A DNA stretch of 37,557 nt, taken from the IMG/VR virus record IMGVR_UViG_3300037245_000544, positions 1 to 37,557 of that record. One strand, 5' to 3'. Below, one piece after another: positions 1,178-34,409 of this stretch (positions within the stretch are counted from its first letter, which is position 1; every line of letters begins with the position of its first letter). Below the pieces are notes generated by a model. That model worked only from the letters and a program-made list of their open reading frames with translations. It was not told the DNA's origin and ran no database searches. Origin of the DNA: a virus. A program made the position numbers and the translations under genes.

Positions 1178-1205
1178 TTGACTTTTGATTTATATCGGGT
1201 ATAGT
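1178..1205 (+). promoter_or_regulatory. Sigma-70-type promoter
   Basis: TTGACT at 1178-1183 and TATAGT at 1200-1205 are separated by 16 bases, close to consensus. The predicted start of transcription is near 1212, exactly where the first arm of the pseudoknot begins. It would drive the early genes from 1365 onward. Confidence 0.75.
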
Positions 1206-1211
1206 TTAAGA

Positions 1212-1314
1212 GCCATGAGAAACAACCATAACAATCAAGAAACCTCACGAACCACACCGGAGTCCCTCCAGCTCCACTTTTCTCATGGCGAGATCATAGC
1301 GTTCGTGGGGTTTT
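1212..1314 (+). ncRNA. Structured leader or small RNA, H-type pseudoknot
   Basis: Two long inverted repeats are interleaved. Arm A, GCCATGAGAAA (1212-1222), is perfectly complementary to TTTCTCATGGC (1279-1289). Arm B, AAACCTCACGAAC (1240-1252), pairs with GTTCGTGGGGTTT (1301-1313) with one G-U pair, and one further G-U pair extends it to 1314. The order A-B-A'-B' is that of a pseudoknot. The region lies between a strong promoter and the gene at 1365 and contains no convincing ORF. Stem B' ends in TTTT, so it could also terminate a short RNA of about 100 nt. Function is unknown: regulatory leader, riboswitch-like element or free small RNA are all possible. Confidence 0.6.
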
Positions 1315-1364
1315 CAATTAACTAACGCCCATAAGGGCATAACTTTTAATGAAGGAGTATTACA

Positions 1365-1634
1365 ATGAGTACAACATCAACACCAGTATATGTATCAACG
1401 AGAACTAAAAGCAGTTACAAGATTAACGCCAAAGCGATAGTCCTCACAACCCACAAGGGCACTAACATGCTTATCGAGACGGAAGAAGTCCCCGTTCTGG
1501 ACGACGTGCTTTACAAGGGTTTCTACAGCGAGGACTTAGCGAAGTATCAGGCCCGTAAGGACATCGAGAAGATGATTAAAGGTGGACTGAAAGTGAAGAT
1601 GGAAGATGTCGAGGTAGCCGCCCGCCCTTTTTGA
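1365..1634 (+). CDS. Hypothetical early protein with frameshift-prone end
   Basis: The 89-residue protein starts MSTTSTPVYVSTRTK with a good GGAG site 10 bases upstream. It is the first gene after the promoter and pseudoknot leader. I recognise no family; the second half looks helical and charged. The end is odd: the last codons read CGC CCT TTT TGA, which is both a -1 slippery heptamer (C CCT TTT) and a +1-prone TTT before TGA. Coding sequence appears to continue in another frame. Confidence 0.65.
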   Translation: MSTTSTPVYVSTRTKSSYKINAKAIVLTTHKGTNMLIETEEVPVLDDVLYKGFYSEDLAKYQARKDIEKMIKGGLKVKMEDVEVAARPF

Positions 1635-3601: not shown

Positions 3602-4180
3602 ATGGCAAAGATAAGAATTCTGTTTTACAAAGCCAAATGGGGTGACGGCCATCTAATGGACAACCTCATCAACTTCTGGACATGGTTAATCAGTGCCAAG
3701 AACCGTAAGGTTGGGCCTTATAGCCATGTAGAGATATGGACGCCGTGGTCAATGGACACTTTCCATGTCAAGGCCGCAGACGGAACTATCCTTGACAATG
3801 TCGGCACGCTCTGGACCTCTACCATGCGAGGCAAAGACAACGGTACAGTCAAGCGGCCGGCTAGTGAGGTTATACAGAATCCCAAACGCTGGGACTATGC
3901 CGAAATAGAAGTGACGCATGATGATTACGATAGAATGGTGCTATGGATGAAGATAGAGGTTGACTTCAATTCAGGTTACTCTATGCGAGATTTATTTAAG
4001 TTCTTCGGGCTTGGAATACTAGCCGACAAGAAAAAGAATATCTGTAGTGAGTTTTCCAATAACGCTATTCATCAAGCATTTGGCATTGACGATGACGAAG
4101 TCGTCTCCCCCCGCCGCCTTGCCTGGAAGCTGGTACAGGCTGGGTGTGTAATTAAACCTCTTAAGGAGATAGAAGCATGA
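3602..4180 (+). CDS. Permuted NlpC/P60-like (YiiX-type) cysteine hydrolase
   Basis: The 192-residue protein has YSHVEIW near residue 40 and KNICSEFSNNAIHQAFG near residue 140, followed by VSPRRLAWKL. A His-containing strand before a CSE motif is the order of the circularly permuted papain-like NlpC/P60 families, in which Cys and His are catalytic. Such enzymes cut peptide, amide or ester bonds. Here a cell-wall or lipid target is possible but not shown. There is no signal peptide. It could be the lytic enzyme, since no classical lysozyme was seen. The next gene overlaps by ATGA. Confidence 0.6.
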   Translation: MAKIRILFYKAKWGDGHLMDNLINFWTWLISAKNRKVGPYSHVEIWTPWSMDTFHVKAADGTILDNVGTLWTSTMRGKDNGTVKRPASEVIQNPKRWDYAEIEVTHDDYDRMVLWMKIEVDFNSGYSMRDLFKFFGLGILADKKKNICSEFSNNAIHQAFGIDDDEVVSPRRLAWKLVQAGCVIKPLKEIEA

Positions 4181-4839: not shown

Positions 4840-4977
4840 ATGACAAAACAACAGATATTACCAACACTTCTAATAGTAATAGACTTAGGTGCGGCGTTTA
4901 TGTACTTCCCCGACGACTGGCGAAAGGTTGTTTACTGGATTGCGGCGGCAGCACTTACTTATGTTGTAACCTTTTAA
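4840..4977 (+). CDS. Small two-span membrane protein
   Basis: The 45-residue protein starts MTKQQILPTLLIVIDLGAAF. It has two hydrophobic segments (about 5-22 and 31-45) joined by a polar turn with PDDWRK. Similar tiny proteins with a DLGAA...DWRK..YW.AAA.LT..VTF pattern are frequent in phage genomes, with unknown role; a holin-like function is possible but unproven. It starts one base after the lipoprotein stop. Confidence 0.65.
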   Translation: MTKQQILPTLLIVIDLGAAFMYFPDDWRKVVYWIAAAALTYVVTF

Positions 4978-5521: not shown

Positions 5522-5742
5522 TCTTTAACTATATCATAAATACGCTCTACGTTATTTTCCATGTTCCGCATCCATTCTTTTTGAACGCCCTCGGATATAG
5601 CCTGTTTCTTTTCTATGGCGTCCATCCTCCCGTCTACATTAGTGTATATCACGAAGCACCCAATCATTGCCCCGGCTATAGCTGAGATAATCTTTATGCT
5701 TGTGTATGTCTTGTCTAGGTTAATCCTTACTCTATCTGTCAT
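5506..5742 (-). CDS. Single-span membrane protein with coiled-coil tail
   Basis: The 78-residue protein starts MTDRVRINLDKTYTSIK. It has one hydrophobic segment at about residues 16-35 followed by a charged helix rich in Glu, Lys and Asn. This resembles holin- or i-spanin-like phage proteins, and its place at the end of the late operon would suit a lysis role, but no specific family is recognised. An AAAGGAG site lies just before the ATG. Confidence 0.6.
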   Translation of the reverse strand: MTDRVRINLDKTYTSIKIISAIAGAMIGCFVIYTNVDGRMDAIEKKQAISEGVQKEWMRNMENNVERIYDIVKEWERE

Positions 5743-5753
5743 GATGTACTCCT

Positions 5754-7910
5754 TTAAAAATCTCTGCCTCTTAAGCCGCCTACGTTGCGGGGTTGCTGTT
5801 TCTTGTCTTTTGGGAGTATTTTCGCGTCTCTAAGTAACGACTTGTTAAGCTTTGCTACAATTCCAGGTATCCGCTTCGAGCCTTTAGGCATTTTCAATAA
5901 GCCTCTGATCAGTGCGCTAGAAGCAGGCTTACTTGCGGCCAATGCCCACGCTGCCGGAGCTATAGCCACAGTTCCACCTGCTAACATTGTAACAGGGTTA
6001 TCATTTACAAAAGGCAGACCGCCTACTGCGGCAATACCTCCGCCTGTTTGTATACCCTTAATAAACAACACCCCCAGTGCGTTCTTTTTATTCTGGGTTA
6101 TCTTTGCAAACTCCCTAAGCCTTCTGAGGCTCTTTGCCTGCTTAGGGCCAAGCAATTCTTTTGATGCCGCTAGTCCAAACTTCTTTATATTAGTTTCTAG
6201 CTTGTGGGATATTATCTTGCCAGTCTGCGAGTCTGTTGATCTTGCTATAAGGTCTTCATACCACGTCCTTTGTAGCTGATTCCATGTCTCGACACCGCTC
6301 TCGTTAACCTTACCTTTAATTGTTTTCGTTAGGCCGTTTCTTATGTTCTTGATGTTGTCTATACCGTTATCTGGAAACAATGTCTCCACCGCCCTAGCCT
6401 TCGCTCTTGGGTCGTCTAGCTTATTGATTAACTTTAGTGGGAAGGCATCATTGAAAGCCTTCTTCCCGGTGCGGTAAGCGACCCTGAGATTCGCGTGAAG
6501 CAACTTAGCCTCCTTGCTTGCACCTTTAACTGATATAGGGTCTGTCAAGGCTTCATCAGCAAGGGATGCGAGTTTCTTAACTGCTCCCTGTGCAGCATCG
6601 CCGCTTATATCTAGGGATTTTATCTTTTTTGTCAAATTAGTTTTCACTCGTCGCATACCTTTGTATGTGATGAAGTTGGGCATCTTGTCTATTTTTGCAA
6701 TCTCCGAAACAAGTTCGGCGCTCTCTGCTACTCCACCTGTTTGTAACATCTCGAATATTTCTTTTTCTGCGAAGTCTTTTATGCCAGCCGTAGATACAGA
6801 AGCTGTTTTTGTAAGGTCGTCAAGCTGCGACCATGCAGGAGAGAATACTTCATCAAAGGTAGAGTCCACGCCAATTATTGCAGACCTTAGAGAGTCGGCC
6901 ATAATATCGGGCTCTAATTTAGACATTCCTTCCGCAATATCGCCAGCTATTATCTTACTCATCTTTACTATAGCTCTATCTGCTGGCTCGTCAATAAGTT
7001 GCTTCATTAGTTCCTTGCCGCCAATGCCGCTTCTAGCAACTGACTCTCCGAACTTTATCACGAACTTCTTGTCGAGTTGAGCCGGAGAGAACCTTCCCCC
7101 TAACTCTACAAACGAACTTGCCAATGCCGCCGCCCTTGGCGCTATCTTCTTAATGAGTGGAGAAAATATAAAACCACCAGCCTTTGCCACGCCTAATCCA
7201 GCGGCGTCTAATAAGCCTTCTACTGTGCCACCTTTTAAAGCAGGTCCAATTGCTTCCCTTGATGCCGCACTGACCTGCTCACCAAACTCGCCTAGGGATT
7301 CTGGGAATGGGTCTTCTTCGGCAGATTTCGCAAACTCAGTTGCAAATCTGCCTGCTGCTCCACCGACAACAGCGCCGGGAGGGCCAGCGGCTATGCCACC
7401 AACTATTCCGCCTATTGTCTGTAAGCCTTCGTCTGAGCCTACGAAATCTGATATGGCATCAATCTGGGCGTCTGTCCGTTTATTGCTCGCTATCATTGCT
7501 TCTTCGTTCTCAGTCATCACTTCAACGGCATCTTCTCTTGATAAGCCACTCGCTTCAAGCTTTGCTAGTTTCTTCCTCATCCCACGTCTACGGAAAGGAT
7601 CACCTTCAACGTCAGACCTTATGAATCTTGGGAGTGCCGCTTCTCTCTGGGCTTCATTGGCTTGCCCAATCGCCCTCCCTGCTATTTCTGCTAGTCGCGG
7701 GTCTGGCGCAGCGGAGCCCTGTACTGCGGATTGAGGTATTGCAGCATTGATTGACGCGTCTGCATCCTGTATGGCAGGGGCTTGTGCAGGCTGGGCTGGA
7801 GCCTGCTTACGTTGGATTGCCGCCTGTATCTGCTCGTCATTGACGCCTGTTTGTTCTGCCTGTTGCTTTCGTGCTATGGCAGCTTGTATTTGTTCTTCTG
7901 TTACAGCCAT
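5754..7910 (-). CDS. Large internal-virion / ejection-type protein
   Basis: The 718-residue protein is mostly alpha-helical. It opens with a duplicated unit, EEQIQAAIARKQ and DEQIQAAIQRKQ, within 35 residues, then an Ala/Pro/Gln-rich linker. Near residue 165 a Gly/Ala-rich hydrophobic stretch (IGGIVGGIAAGPPGAVVGG) could enter a membrane. A second one lies near residue 630. The C-terminus is basic. Large helical proteins with glycine-rich membrane segments encoded after the tail genes are typical of podovirus internal virion proteins that escort DNA into the cell. That role is inferred from position and composition; no enzymatic motif is visible. Confidence 0.6.
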   Translation of the reverse strand: MAVTEEQIQAAIARKQQAEQTGVNDEQIQAAIQRKQAPAQPAQAPAIQDADASINAAIPQSAVQGSAAPDPRLAEIAGRAIGQANEAQREAALPRFIRSDVEGDPFRRRGMRKKLAKLEASGLSREDAVEVMTENEEAMIASNKRTDAQIDAISDFVGSDEGLQTIGGIVGGIAAGPPGAVVGGAAGRFATEFAKSAEEDPFPESLGEFGEQVSAASREAIGPALKGGTVEGLLDAAGLGVAKAGGFIFSPLIKKIAPRAAALASSFVELGGRFSPAQLDKKFVIKFGESVARSGIGGKELMKQLIDEPADRAIVKMSKIIAGDIAEGMSKLEPDIMADSLRSAIIGVDSTFDEVFSPAWSQLDDLTKTASVSTAGIKDFAEKEIFEMLQTGGVAESAELVSEIAKIDKMPNFITYKGMRRVKTNLTKKIKSLDISGDAAQGAVKKLASLADEALTDPISVKGASKEAKLLHANLRVAYRTGKKAFNDAFPLKLINKLDDPRAKARAVETLFPDNGIDNIKNIRNGLTKTIKGKVNESGVETWNQLQRTWYEDLIARSTDSQTGKIISHKLETNIKKFGLAASKELLGPKQAKSLRRLREFAKITQNKKNALGVLFIKGIQTGGGIAAVGGLPFVNDNPVTMLAGGTVAIAPAAWALAASKPASSALIRGLLKMPKGSKRIPGIVAKLNKSLLRDAKILPKDKKQQPRNVGGLRGRDF

Positions 7911-33644: not shown

Positions 33645-33885
33645 GTTCTAGTCCTTTCTTGTCCTGTAATTGGAAAGTGGGGGGGCGTGTGTGTGAGGGT
33701 GTGATACACCGCATAGGGGGGGGTGGGGGGGGGCACGTACCCCCTTGGGGTGCCCTGTCCTGCCCTAGGCCCGTACACGCCTGTTTAAGCCCGTCCCGCT
33801 CCATACCCTGCCATTGTTCCCGTAACGGGGCTAATGCCTTACATGGGCTGTGTGTGGGCTTGTGCGTGGTGTGGGCCTGTGTCAT
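33637..33885 (-). CDS. 82-residue His/Pro-rich frame across poly-C tracts (tentative)
   Basis: An ATG at 33885, two bases after the TerS stop, opens a frame starting MTQAHTTHKPTHSPCKALAP. It includes six Pro from the C8/C9 tracts and ends in ATGAGTAG overlap with the following gene. An AAGAGG site is 10 bases upstream. This exact gap-filling fit suggests translation, though the amino acid composition is unusual and the region could instead be a non-coding signal. If translated, slippage in the homopolymers would change the frame. Confidence 0.4.
   Translation of the reverse strand: MTQAHTTHKPTHSPCKALAPLREQWQGMERDGLKQACTGLGQDRAPQGGTCPPPPPPMRCITPSHTRPPTFQLQDKKGLEHE
33679..33733. repeat. Homopolymeric G tracts G7, G8-T-G9
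   Basis: On the plus strand there are seven G (33679-33685), eight G (33716-33723), one T, then nine G (33725-33733). Runs this long are rare in the rest of the window. They are prone to replication slippage and can form G-quadruplexes. They lie just downstream of the TerS gene in transcription order. Confidence 0.9.
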
Positions 33886-33887
33886 AC

Positions 33888-34409
33888 TTAGAACCTCTTG
33901 GCTATAGCCGTCTCTGTGGTGGCATAGGCCGTGAGGATGCCTGCATTGGCCTCTATACGGTCTATCTCCTCCTTGCACCAGGTCAGGCGCAGGGCAGGGT
34001 CTGAGGGGATGTCGGCGTTGAGGTTGATGGCTATTTCCTTGAACATTGCCTTGTGCTTGCCTAGCAGCTCCATGCTCCTAATCCTGTCACCATTATTAAC
34101 CATTACAGCTCCATCCCCCGTTACAGGGAACGCCAGCTCCTTTAATCCTTGTACTATCTGCTCTACTGTTACATCGGCTTTACGGGCTAATTCCTGTTCT
34201 TTGGTGTGTACTACTACTAATGCCTTTTCAGTGAATATTTGCTTTATGTTATGGTTTGCGAACCTTGCTACGTATCCTGCTCCTATTGCTGATTGTGTTT
34301 GGTTCTTATAGGTTTGCTTTGAAGGGTCATTATCGTTGTATATCCCCGGTGTGGTGTATAGCCTTACTGCTTCTGCCTGTTTAGCTGATAATGTGGTACT
34401 GATTGACAT
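33888..34409 (-). CDS. Terminase small subunit
   Basis: The 173-residue protein begins MSISTTLSAKQAEAVRLYTT. It contains KNQTQSAIGAGYVARFANHN, a helix-turn-helix-like opening typical of TerS, then VTVEQIVQGLKELAF and DRIRSMELLGKHKAMFKEIA. The R...RSMELLGKH...FKE block is diagnostic of Terminase_2-type small subunits, which recognise the pac/cos site. It is an early gene of the late operon, upstream of TerL. Start ATG 34409 is three bases after a small membrane-peptide frame. Confidence 0.82.
   Translation of the reverse strand: MSISTTLSAKQAEAVRLYTTPGIYNDNDPSKQTYKNQTQSAIGAGYVARFANHNIKQIFTEKALVVVHTKEQELARKADVTVEQIVQGLKELAFPVTGDGAVMVNNGDRIRSMELLGKHKAMFKEIAINLNADIPSDPALRLTWCKEEIDRIEANAGILTAYATTETAIAKRF

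Follow-up and report, generated by a model that had tools for sequence, protein, structure and literature searches.

A recurrent pseudoknot-capable leader element with a 5′-terminal AUG and a terminator-like stem in uncultured phages

Organization of the leader element

The window analysed here, a virus record, comprises 37,557 bases. On its plus strand, a leader element lies between a sigma-70-type promoter (1178..1205) and the first gene of a downstream operon (1365..1634), both on that strand as well. The promoter, TTGACT-N16-TATAGT, matches the consensus at 10 of 12 positions. The predicted transcription start (approximately 1211–1212) falls on the first base of the element because the promoter ends at 1205, in agreement with the sequence-only reading, which had placed the element at the predicted transcription start of a sigma-70 promoter. 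This is the only promoter match within positions 900–1700, a region in which about 1.1 such matches per shuffle are expected by chance; hence, the assignment in the window rests on position and on recurrence in relatives, where a similar sequence (GGGTATAGT/GGGTATAAT) occupies the same position.

The element consists of two interleaved stems whose strands follow the order A-B-A′-B′, separated by loops L1, L2, and L3 of 16, 26, and 11 nt, respectively. Strand A (1212..1222, GCCATGAGAAA), situated at the predicted 5′ end of the RNA and including an AUG, pairs with A′ (1279..1289, TTTCTCATGGC) over 11 bp with no mismatch. Strand B (1239..1252, GAAACCTCACGAAC) pairs with B′ (1301..1314, GTTCGTGGGGTTTT): the core, 1240–1252 with 1301–1313, contains 13 bp including one G-U, and an extra G-U extends it to 14 bp (1239–1252/1301–1314). 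The L1 linker (1223..1238, CAACCATAACAATCAA) is A/C-rich and contains no G. L2 holds the hairpin C (1259..1275), in which GGAGU and GCUCC (1259–1263/1271–1275) pair around a CCCUCCA loop; a hairpin is found at this place in only some of the relatives. The CUCC of the loop was considered as an anti-Shine-Dalgarno seed and rejected, since only the window and one relative (G003a) possess it.

Both inverted repeats and the 26-nt stretch between B and A′ are therefore present as the sequence-only reading described them, and they exceed chance as it had supposed. None of 100 shuffles of the whole window (100 × 37.5 kb), made with dinucleotide composition preserved, equals the summed stem score of 59, the maximum being 55. 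The folding z-score is −2.6 for 1205–1320 and −3.9 for 1237–1320. By itself, B:B′ has a folding energy of −28 kcal/mol (−28.1 when enforced alone), and A:A′ enforced alone reaches −23.4 kcal/mol.

Downstream of B′, a spacer (1318..1364) includes a hairpin, GCCCATAAGGGC, as well as AAGGAG, the Shine-Dalgarno sequence for the gene that follows. This gene encodes 89 amino acids with no assigned function.

Recurrence of the layout in related phages

Twelve complete members of this element are present in seven uncultured phage contigs (G000, G003, G005, G006, G008, G009, and G010), together with an incomplete one in L002, where A lies beyond the contig end. Each complete member possesses the same layout, namely a promoter, A, an A/C-rich linker, B, A′, B′, and a T-rich tail, while the stem sequences differ; this recurrence of the architecture with divergent sequence is well supported. 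The dimensions vary as well: A spans 9–17 nt (in G008c, 15 pairs with an internal loop), the linker 11–34 nt, B 8–17 nt, and L3 0–11 nt, with computed duplex energies of −10 to −22 kcal/mol for A:A′ and −14 to −28 kcal/mol for B:B′.

The members in G005, G006, G008, and G009 come from a scan for a promoter followed by interleaved stems, in contigs fetched via a conserved neighbouring protein (window 3602–4180). At a promoter score of at least 9 and a stem score of at least 49, nine sites occur in 316 kb of real sequence, compared with zero in shuffled genomes totalling 3.8 Mb. Since members were searched for with a promoter filter, the promoter is not independent evidence within the members; their start sites are predicted ones. 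G003, whose terminase is 87% identical, contains a complete A-B-A′-B′ of the L002 type behind a similar promoter. Furthermore, the linker common to the window and G008a (ACCATNACAATCAA), used as a query, led to L073 (contig G010, with two members). Contigs fetched by the linker pattern (522 kb) contain as members only the original site in G008a and the newly located one in G010, and no copy is present in four annotated phages that have a helicase or terminase in common with the members; the module thus seems restricted to a limited group of uncultured phages. A scan of viral contigs with the promoter pattern gave seven matches, of which only the already known G003 contig has the element. The window has no close relative among isolated phages, whose collection contains no DNA or protein relatives of the region, of the portal, or of the homologue that G005 has of the 3602 gene, and scans of prokaryote genomes for the terminase or the 3602 protein gave no match.

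The window segment 1318–1634 matches L002:75–390, covering the first operon gene (97% identical) and the 40–50 nt ahead of it, including the spacer hairpin and the Shine-Dalgarno sequence. In L002, the pseudoknot region ahead of this segment is replaced by an unrelated sequence of the G003a type, still with a long B:B′ stem. The same gene and spacer behind a different pseudoknot suggest that the leader is exchanged as a module between related phages. The recurrence of the element as a module before different operons was overlooked in the sequence-only reading, together with the 5′-terminal AUG, the frame that stays open through the element, and the A/C-rich linker.

The 5′ AUG, its open frame, and the linker

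In the window, a putative leaderless ORF (or one with a 3–4 nt leader) extends over 1215..1325, comprises 36 codons (MRNNHNNQETSRTTPESLQLHFSHGEIIAFVGFSIN), spans the element, and ends 11 nt past B′. An AUG preceded by no Shine-Dalgarno sequence lies 6–10 nt past the −10 box in 11 of the 12 members, at or within a few nucleotides of the predicted RNA 5′ end; in L073, it lies 18 nt past the box, approximately 11 nt away from where transcription is predicted to begin. The AUG of G006 and that of G009b are situated 8–10 nt upstream of A and are hence themselves unpaired. The searches did not filter for the AUG, with the single exception of the linker pattern that led to L073.

In 10 of 11 members, the frame set by this AUG remains open throughout B′, versus 7 of 22 other frames (Fisher p = 0.0017), in a comparison that leaves out the first codon because of the ATGA artefact and in which the A/C-rich linker by itself somewhat reduces the chance of stop codons. 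Between the AUG and B′, one stop codon occurs in the AUG frame, versus 20 and 13 in the other two; the ORF of G009a has its stop between A′ and B′. The twelfth member, found later, is open in the AUG frame as well. However, the stop codon is no closer to the downstream start in this frame than in the others (within 20 nt in 8 cases, versus 6 and 4), and translational coupling to the next gene via the stop codon is therefore not supported, although the ATGA overlaps in G006 and G008b are striking.

Pooled over the members, the linkers are G-poor and 71% A+C, compared with 50% in the genomes. A review reports that leaderless translation is enhanced by CA repeats following the start codon and inhibited by structure surrounding that codon, and that attenuation can be a function of small leaderless ORFs (PMC9031893). 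Both the composition of the linkers and the position of A fit these rules. Among the remaining strong promoters in these genomes, most lead to Shine-Dalgarno starts or lie within coding sequence, and two lead to plain leaderless genes; leaderless starts thus appear, from such arrangements, to be used in these phages. On the minus strand at 33923 of G006 (an HNH-like gene) and at 5679 of G007, a strong promoter is followed by a leaderless AUG with no pseudoknot, which looks like a plain leaderless phage gene in each case.

Terminator features of B:B′ and covariation of A:A′

In all 12 members, B:B′ is a G+C-containing hairpin followed by a U-tract, with at least five T in the 9 nt past the G-C part of B′; about seven of these tracts are strong, the good ones being those of G005, G008a/b/c, G003b, and G010 a/b. 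In most members, B:B′ thus looks like an intrinsic terminator, a resemblance that was overlooked in the sequence-only reading; the terminator that it had listed among several options agrees with these tails. In the window, the tail past the G-C part of B′ (TTTTCAATT) is a weak U-tract, as in G003a, G006, and G009b, and the window B:B′ would be a weak-to-moderate intrinsic terminator. Because it ranks with the weaker terminators of the set, polymerase would there be more likely to pause or to terminate in part than to stop completely.

Compensatory changes accompany the recurrence of the stems. Between the window and G005, A:A′ contains three two-sided changes in 11 pairs, and between G008a and L073, three in 12 pairs, with no broken pair in either comparison; one two-sided change also exists in the small hairpin between G003a and L002. 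Covariation in related phages, which the sequence-only reading had named as a check, is thus observed in both homologous A:A′ comparisons, and it agrees with the pseudoknot-capable leader RNA, beginning at the predicted start, that this reading had proposed. Most members are too diverged for alignment, yet both helices form in each by predicted pairing. The scan allows G-U pairs in the stems, so that by itself it is no proof of RNA over DNA.

The strands of A/A′ and B/B′ share no nucleotides in any of the 12 members. Given these disjoint strands and the loop lengths, the coexistence of A:A′ and B:B′ in one molecule is plausible. In G008a, G008b, G008c, and the second G010 member, A′ adjoins B′ (L3 of 0–1 nt); in such a geometry, direct stacking of A:A′ onto the terminator stem would be possible, and the linker would then cross the helix.

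A proposed attenuation mechanism and competing readings

The element, with its 5′-terminal AUG and terminator-like B:B′, is best read as a transcription attenuator, in which a pseudoknotted intrinsic terminator in the leader RNA would be coupled to leaderless translation; we give this reading an even chance. Transcription would begin at the first base of A, placing the AUG 0–4 nt from the 5′ end. A ribosome arriving early on this AUG would cover A and keep it unpaired, and would then advance via the open A/C-rich linker into B, blocking the terminator B:B′ and permitting readthrough into the operon. If no ribosome arrived before approximately 75–100 nt were made, A′ would pair with A and hide the AUG, B would pair with B′, the polymerase would stop, and an RNA of approximately 100 nt with both ends paired would be released. 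The architecture, its recurrence with divergent sequence, the compensatory changes, the open AUG frame, and the terminator-like tails are observed in the sequences; use of the AUG, termination by B:B′, coexistence of the two helices, and the direction of control are inferred.

A stable trans-acting phage small RNA is a possible but doubtful reading. The promoter and terminator would bound a pseudoknotted RNA of approximately 70–105 nt, protected by its paired ends and directed at host or phage targets, with the AUG incidental. The members with good U-tracts would release such an RNA, and G005 has an additional copy of A (GCCATGAAAG; L028:7183–7194 and 7283–7292) situated at the ribosome-binding site belonging to the following gene, where A′ could also pair. 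Further copies of A as a downstream target occur nearby only in G005, and matches to A in the window are no more numerous than expected. A common target would predict a conserved loop or seed, which the members do not possess; moreover, the AUG frame stays open, and the element directly precedes a gene, mostly one with its own Shine-Dalgarno-like sequence.

Mutually exclusive pairings that form no pseudoknot are unlikely. Here, A:A′ would form first as an antiterminator or delay, B:B′ would serve as the terminator, and a protein, an sRNA, or the ribosome would decide between them. The interleaved order suits such a switch, and the energies of A:A′ and B:B′ in the window are near enough for competition, whereas classical antiterminators overlap the terminator and these two pairs of strands do not; the L3 of 0–11 nt and the long linkers suit a stacked pseudoknot instead.

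It is improbable that the element is a short leaderless gene for a meaningful peptide, such as a regulatory small protein, whose translation is limited by RNA structure. The open AUG frame, which runs on for 93–139 codons in G003a, G005, G008a, and G008b, is what such a gene would have. However, a terminator inside a coding region would be odd, the window peptide is not conserved as such, and the leader peptides in general show no conservation beyond a few N-terminal residues of homologous members, their C-terminal halves being dictated by the stem sequences. A DNA-level element, either an origin or protein-binding repeats, is very improbable: a replication-initiator-like gene lies immediately upstream in the window, but members elsewhere adjoin unrelated genes, and the G-U pairs, the fixed position at the predicted start, and the terminator tails do not suit it.

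If the attenuation mechanism is true, it joins leaderless translation and transcription termination, which are mostly studied apart, in a phage switch that reads the translation state of the host. More tentatively, and with somewhat less than an even chance, the members may represent regulatory RNAs of phages that form a class by their layout and not by their sequence, with 70S leaderless initiation gating a pseudoknotted terminator. Operons would then be switched by the state of the host translation machinery (initiation factors and free 70S) and not by a metabolite, with modules swapped between phages, as between the window and L002. In addition, the element would place leaderless initiation in a physiological context; what such initiation does in regulation is still largely open (PMC9031893).

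Comparison with known regulatory RNAs

Sequence conservation is the usual route to structured RNAs; here, little apart from the layout is kept, and family models would miss the element. The leader-peptide attenuators of the His, Trp, and Phe operons also have, ahead of the operon, a short leader ORF that overlaps RNA structures and an intrinsic terminator. Classical attenuators of this kind rely on a Shine-Dalgarno sequence and on control codons, and their antiterminator has bases in common with the terminator; the phage element would work similarly, but without control codons or a base-sharing antiterminator. The H-type pseudoknot riboswitches preQ1 and SAM-II likewise contain interleaved helices and an A-rich linker in a leader, sometimes linked to termination. 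Whereas these riboswitches possess conserved ligand-binding bases, all stems of the phage element vary freely. The riboswitch-like control suggested in the sequence-only reading is unlikely, because no core sequence for ligand binding is conserved, stems and loops differing among members; nor does Rfam, at gathering and permissive thresholds, contain a matching family. The His operon leader (RF00514) is rejected at 16.6 bits against a cut-off of 49 (E 2.1).

Among phage leader RNAs with long-range pairing, the C4 antisense RNA of phages P1 and P7 (RF01695) and the STAXI motif (PMC2864571) are also comparable. C4 has no match at the gathering score nor, for the window, at E ≤ 10. STAXI, a pseudoknot near phage DNA-handling genes that occurs in two or three tandem repeats (PMC2864571), has no match at the family cut-off nor, in the window, with E allowed to reach 10. 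The mycobacterial leaderless short-ORF attenuators likewise possess a 5′-terminal AUG and a short ORF before an operon, and, as summarised in PMC9031893 for the polycysteine sORFs of Canestrari et al. (2020), translation of the ORF sets the expression of the next genes. Unlike these sORFs, the phage element has an interleaved pseudoknot and an intrinsic terminator within the ORF, belongs to a phage and not to the host, and has no regulatory codon run; the leader peptides of the members contain neither polycysteine codons nor any common codon run. A description of a pseudoknot combined with a terminator and a leaderless ORF was not found in open-licence papers, which does not establish its absence from the literature.

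Additional observations on neighbouring sequences

The genes behind the element in G006, G008a, and G010 (minus strand, 14011) look HNH- or zinc-finger-like, with a near-cutoff Pfam match (HNH_3) only in G006. A membrane-like protein of 45 amino acids encoded at 4840–4977 of the window is 84% identical in G005 (L028, approximately 6998–7132), where it lies directly upstream of the element. At 33675–33760 of the window, intergenic G runs (gggggggcgtgtgtg...gggggggtgggggggggg) form an unusual simple sequence between late-region ORFs. Meanwhile, L042:7483–7923 contains short-repeat ORFs (GYGSGYGS...) that are open in several frames on both strands.
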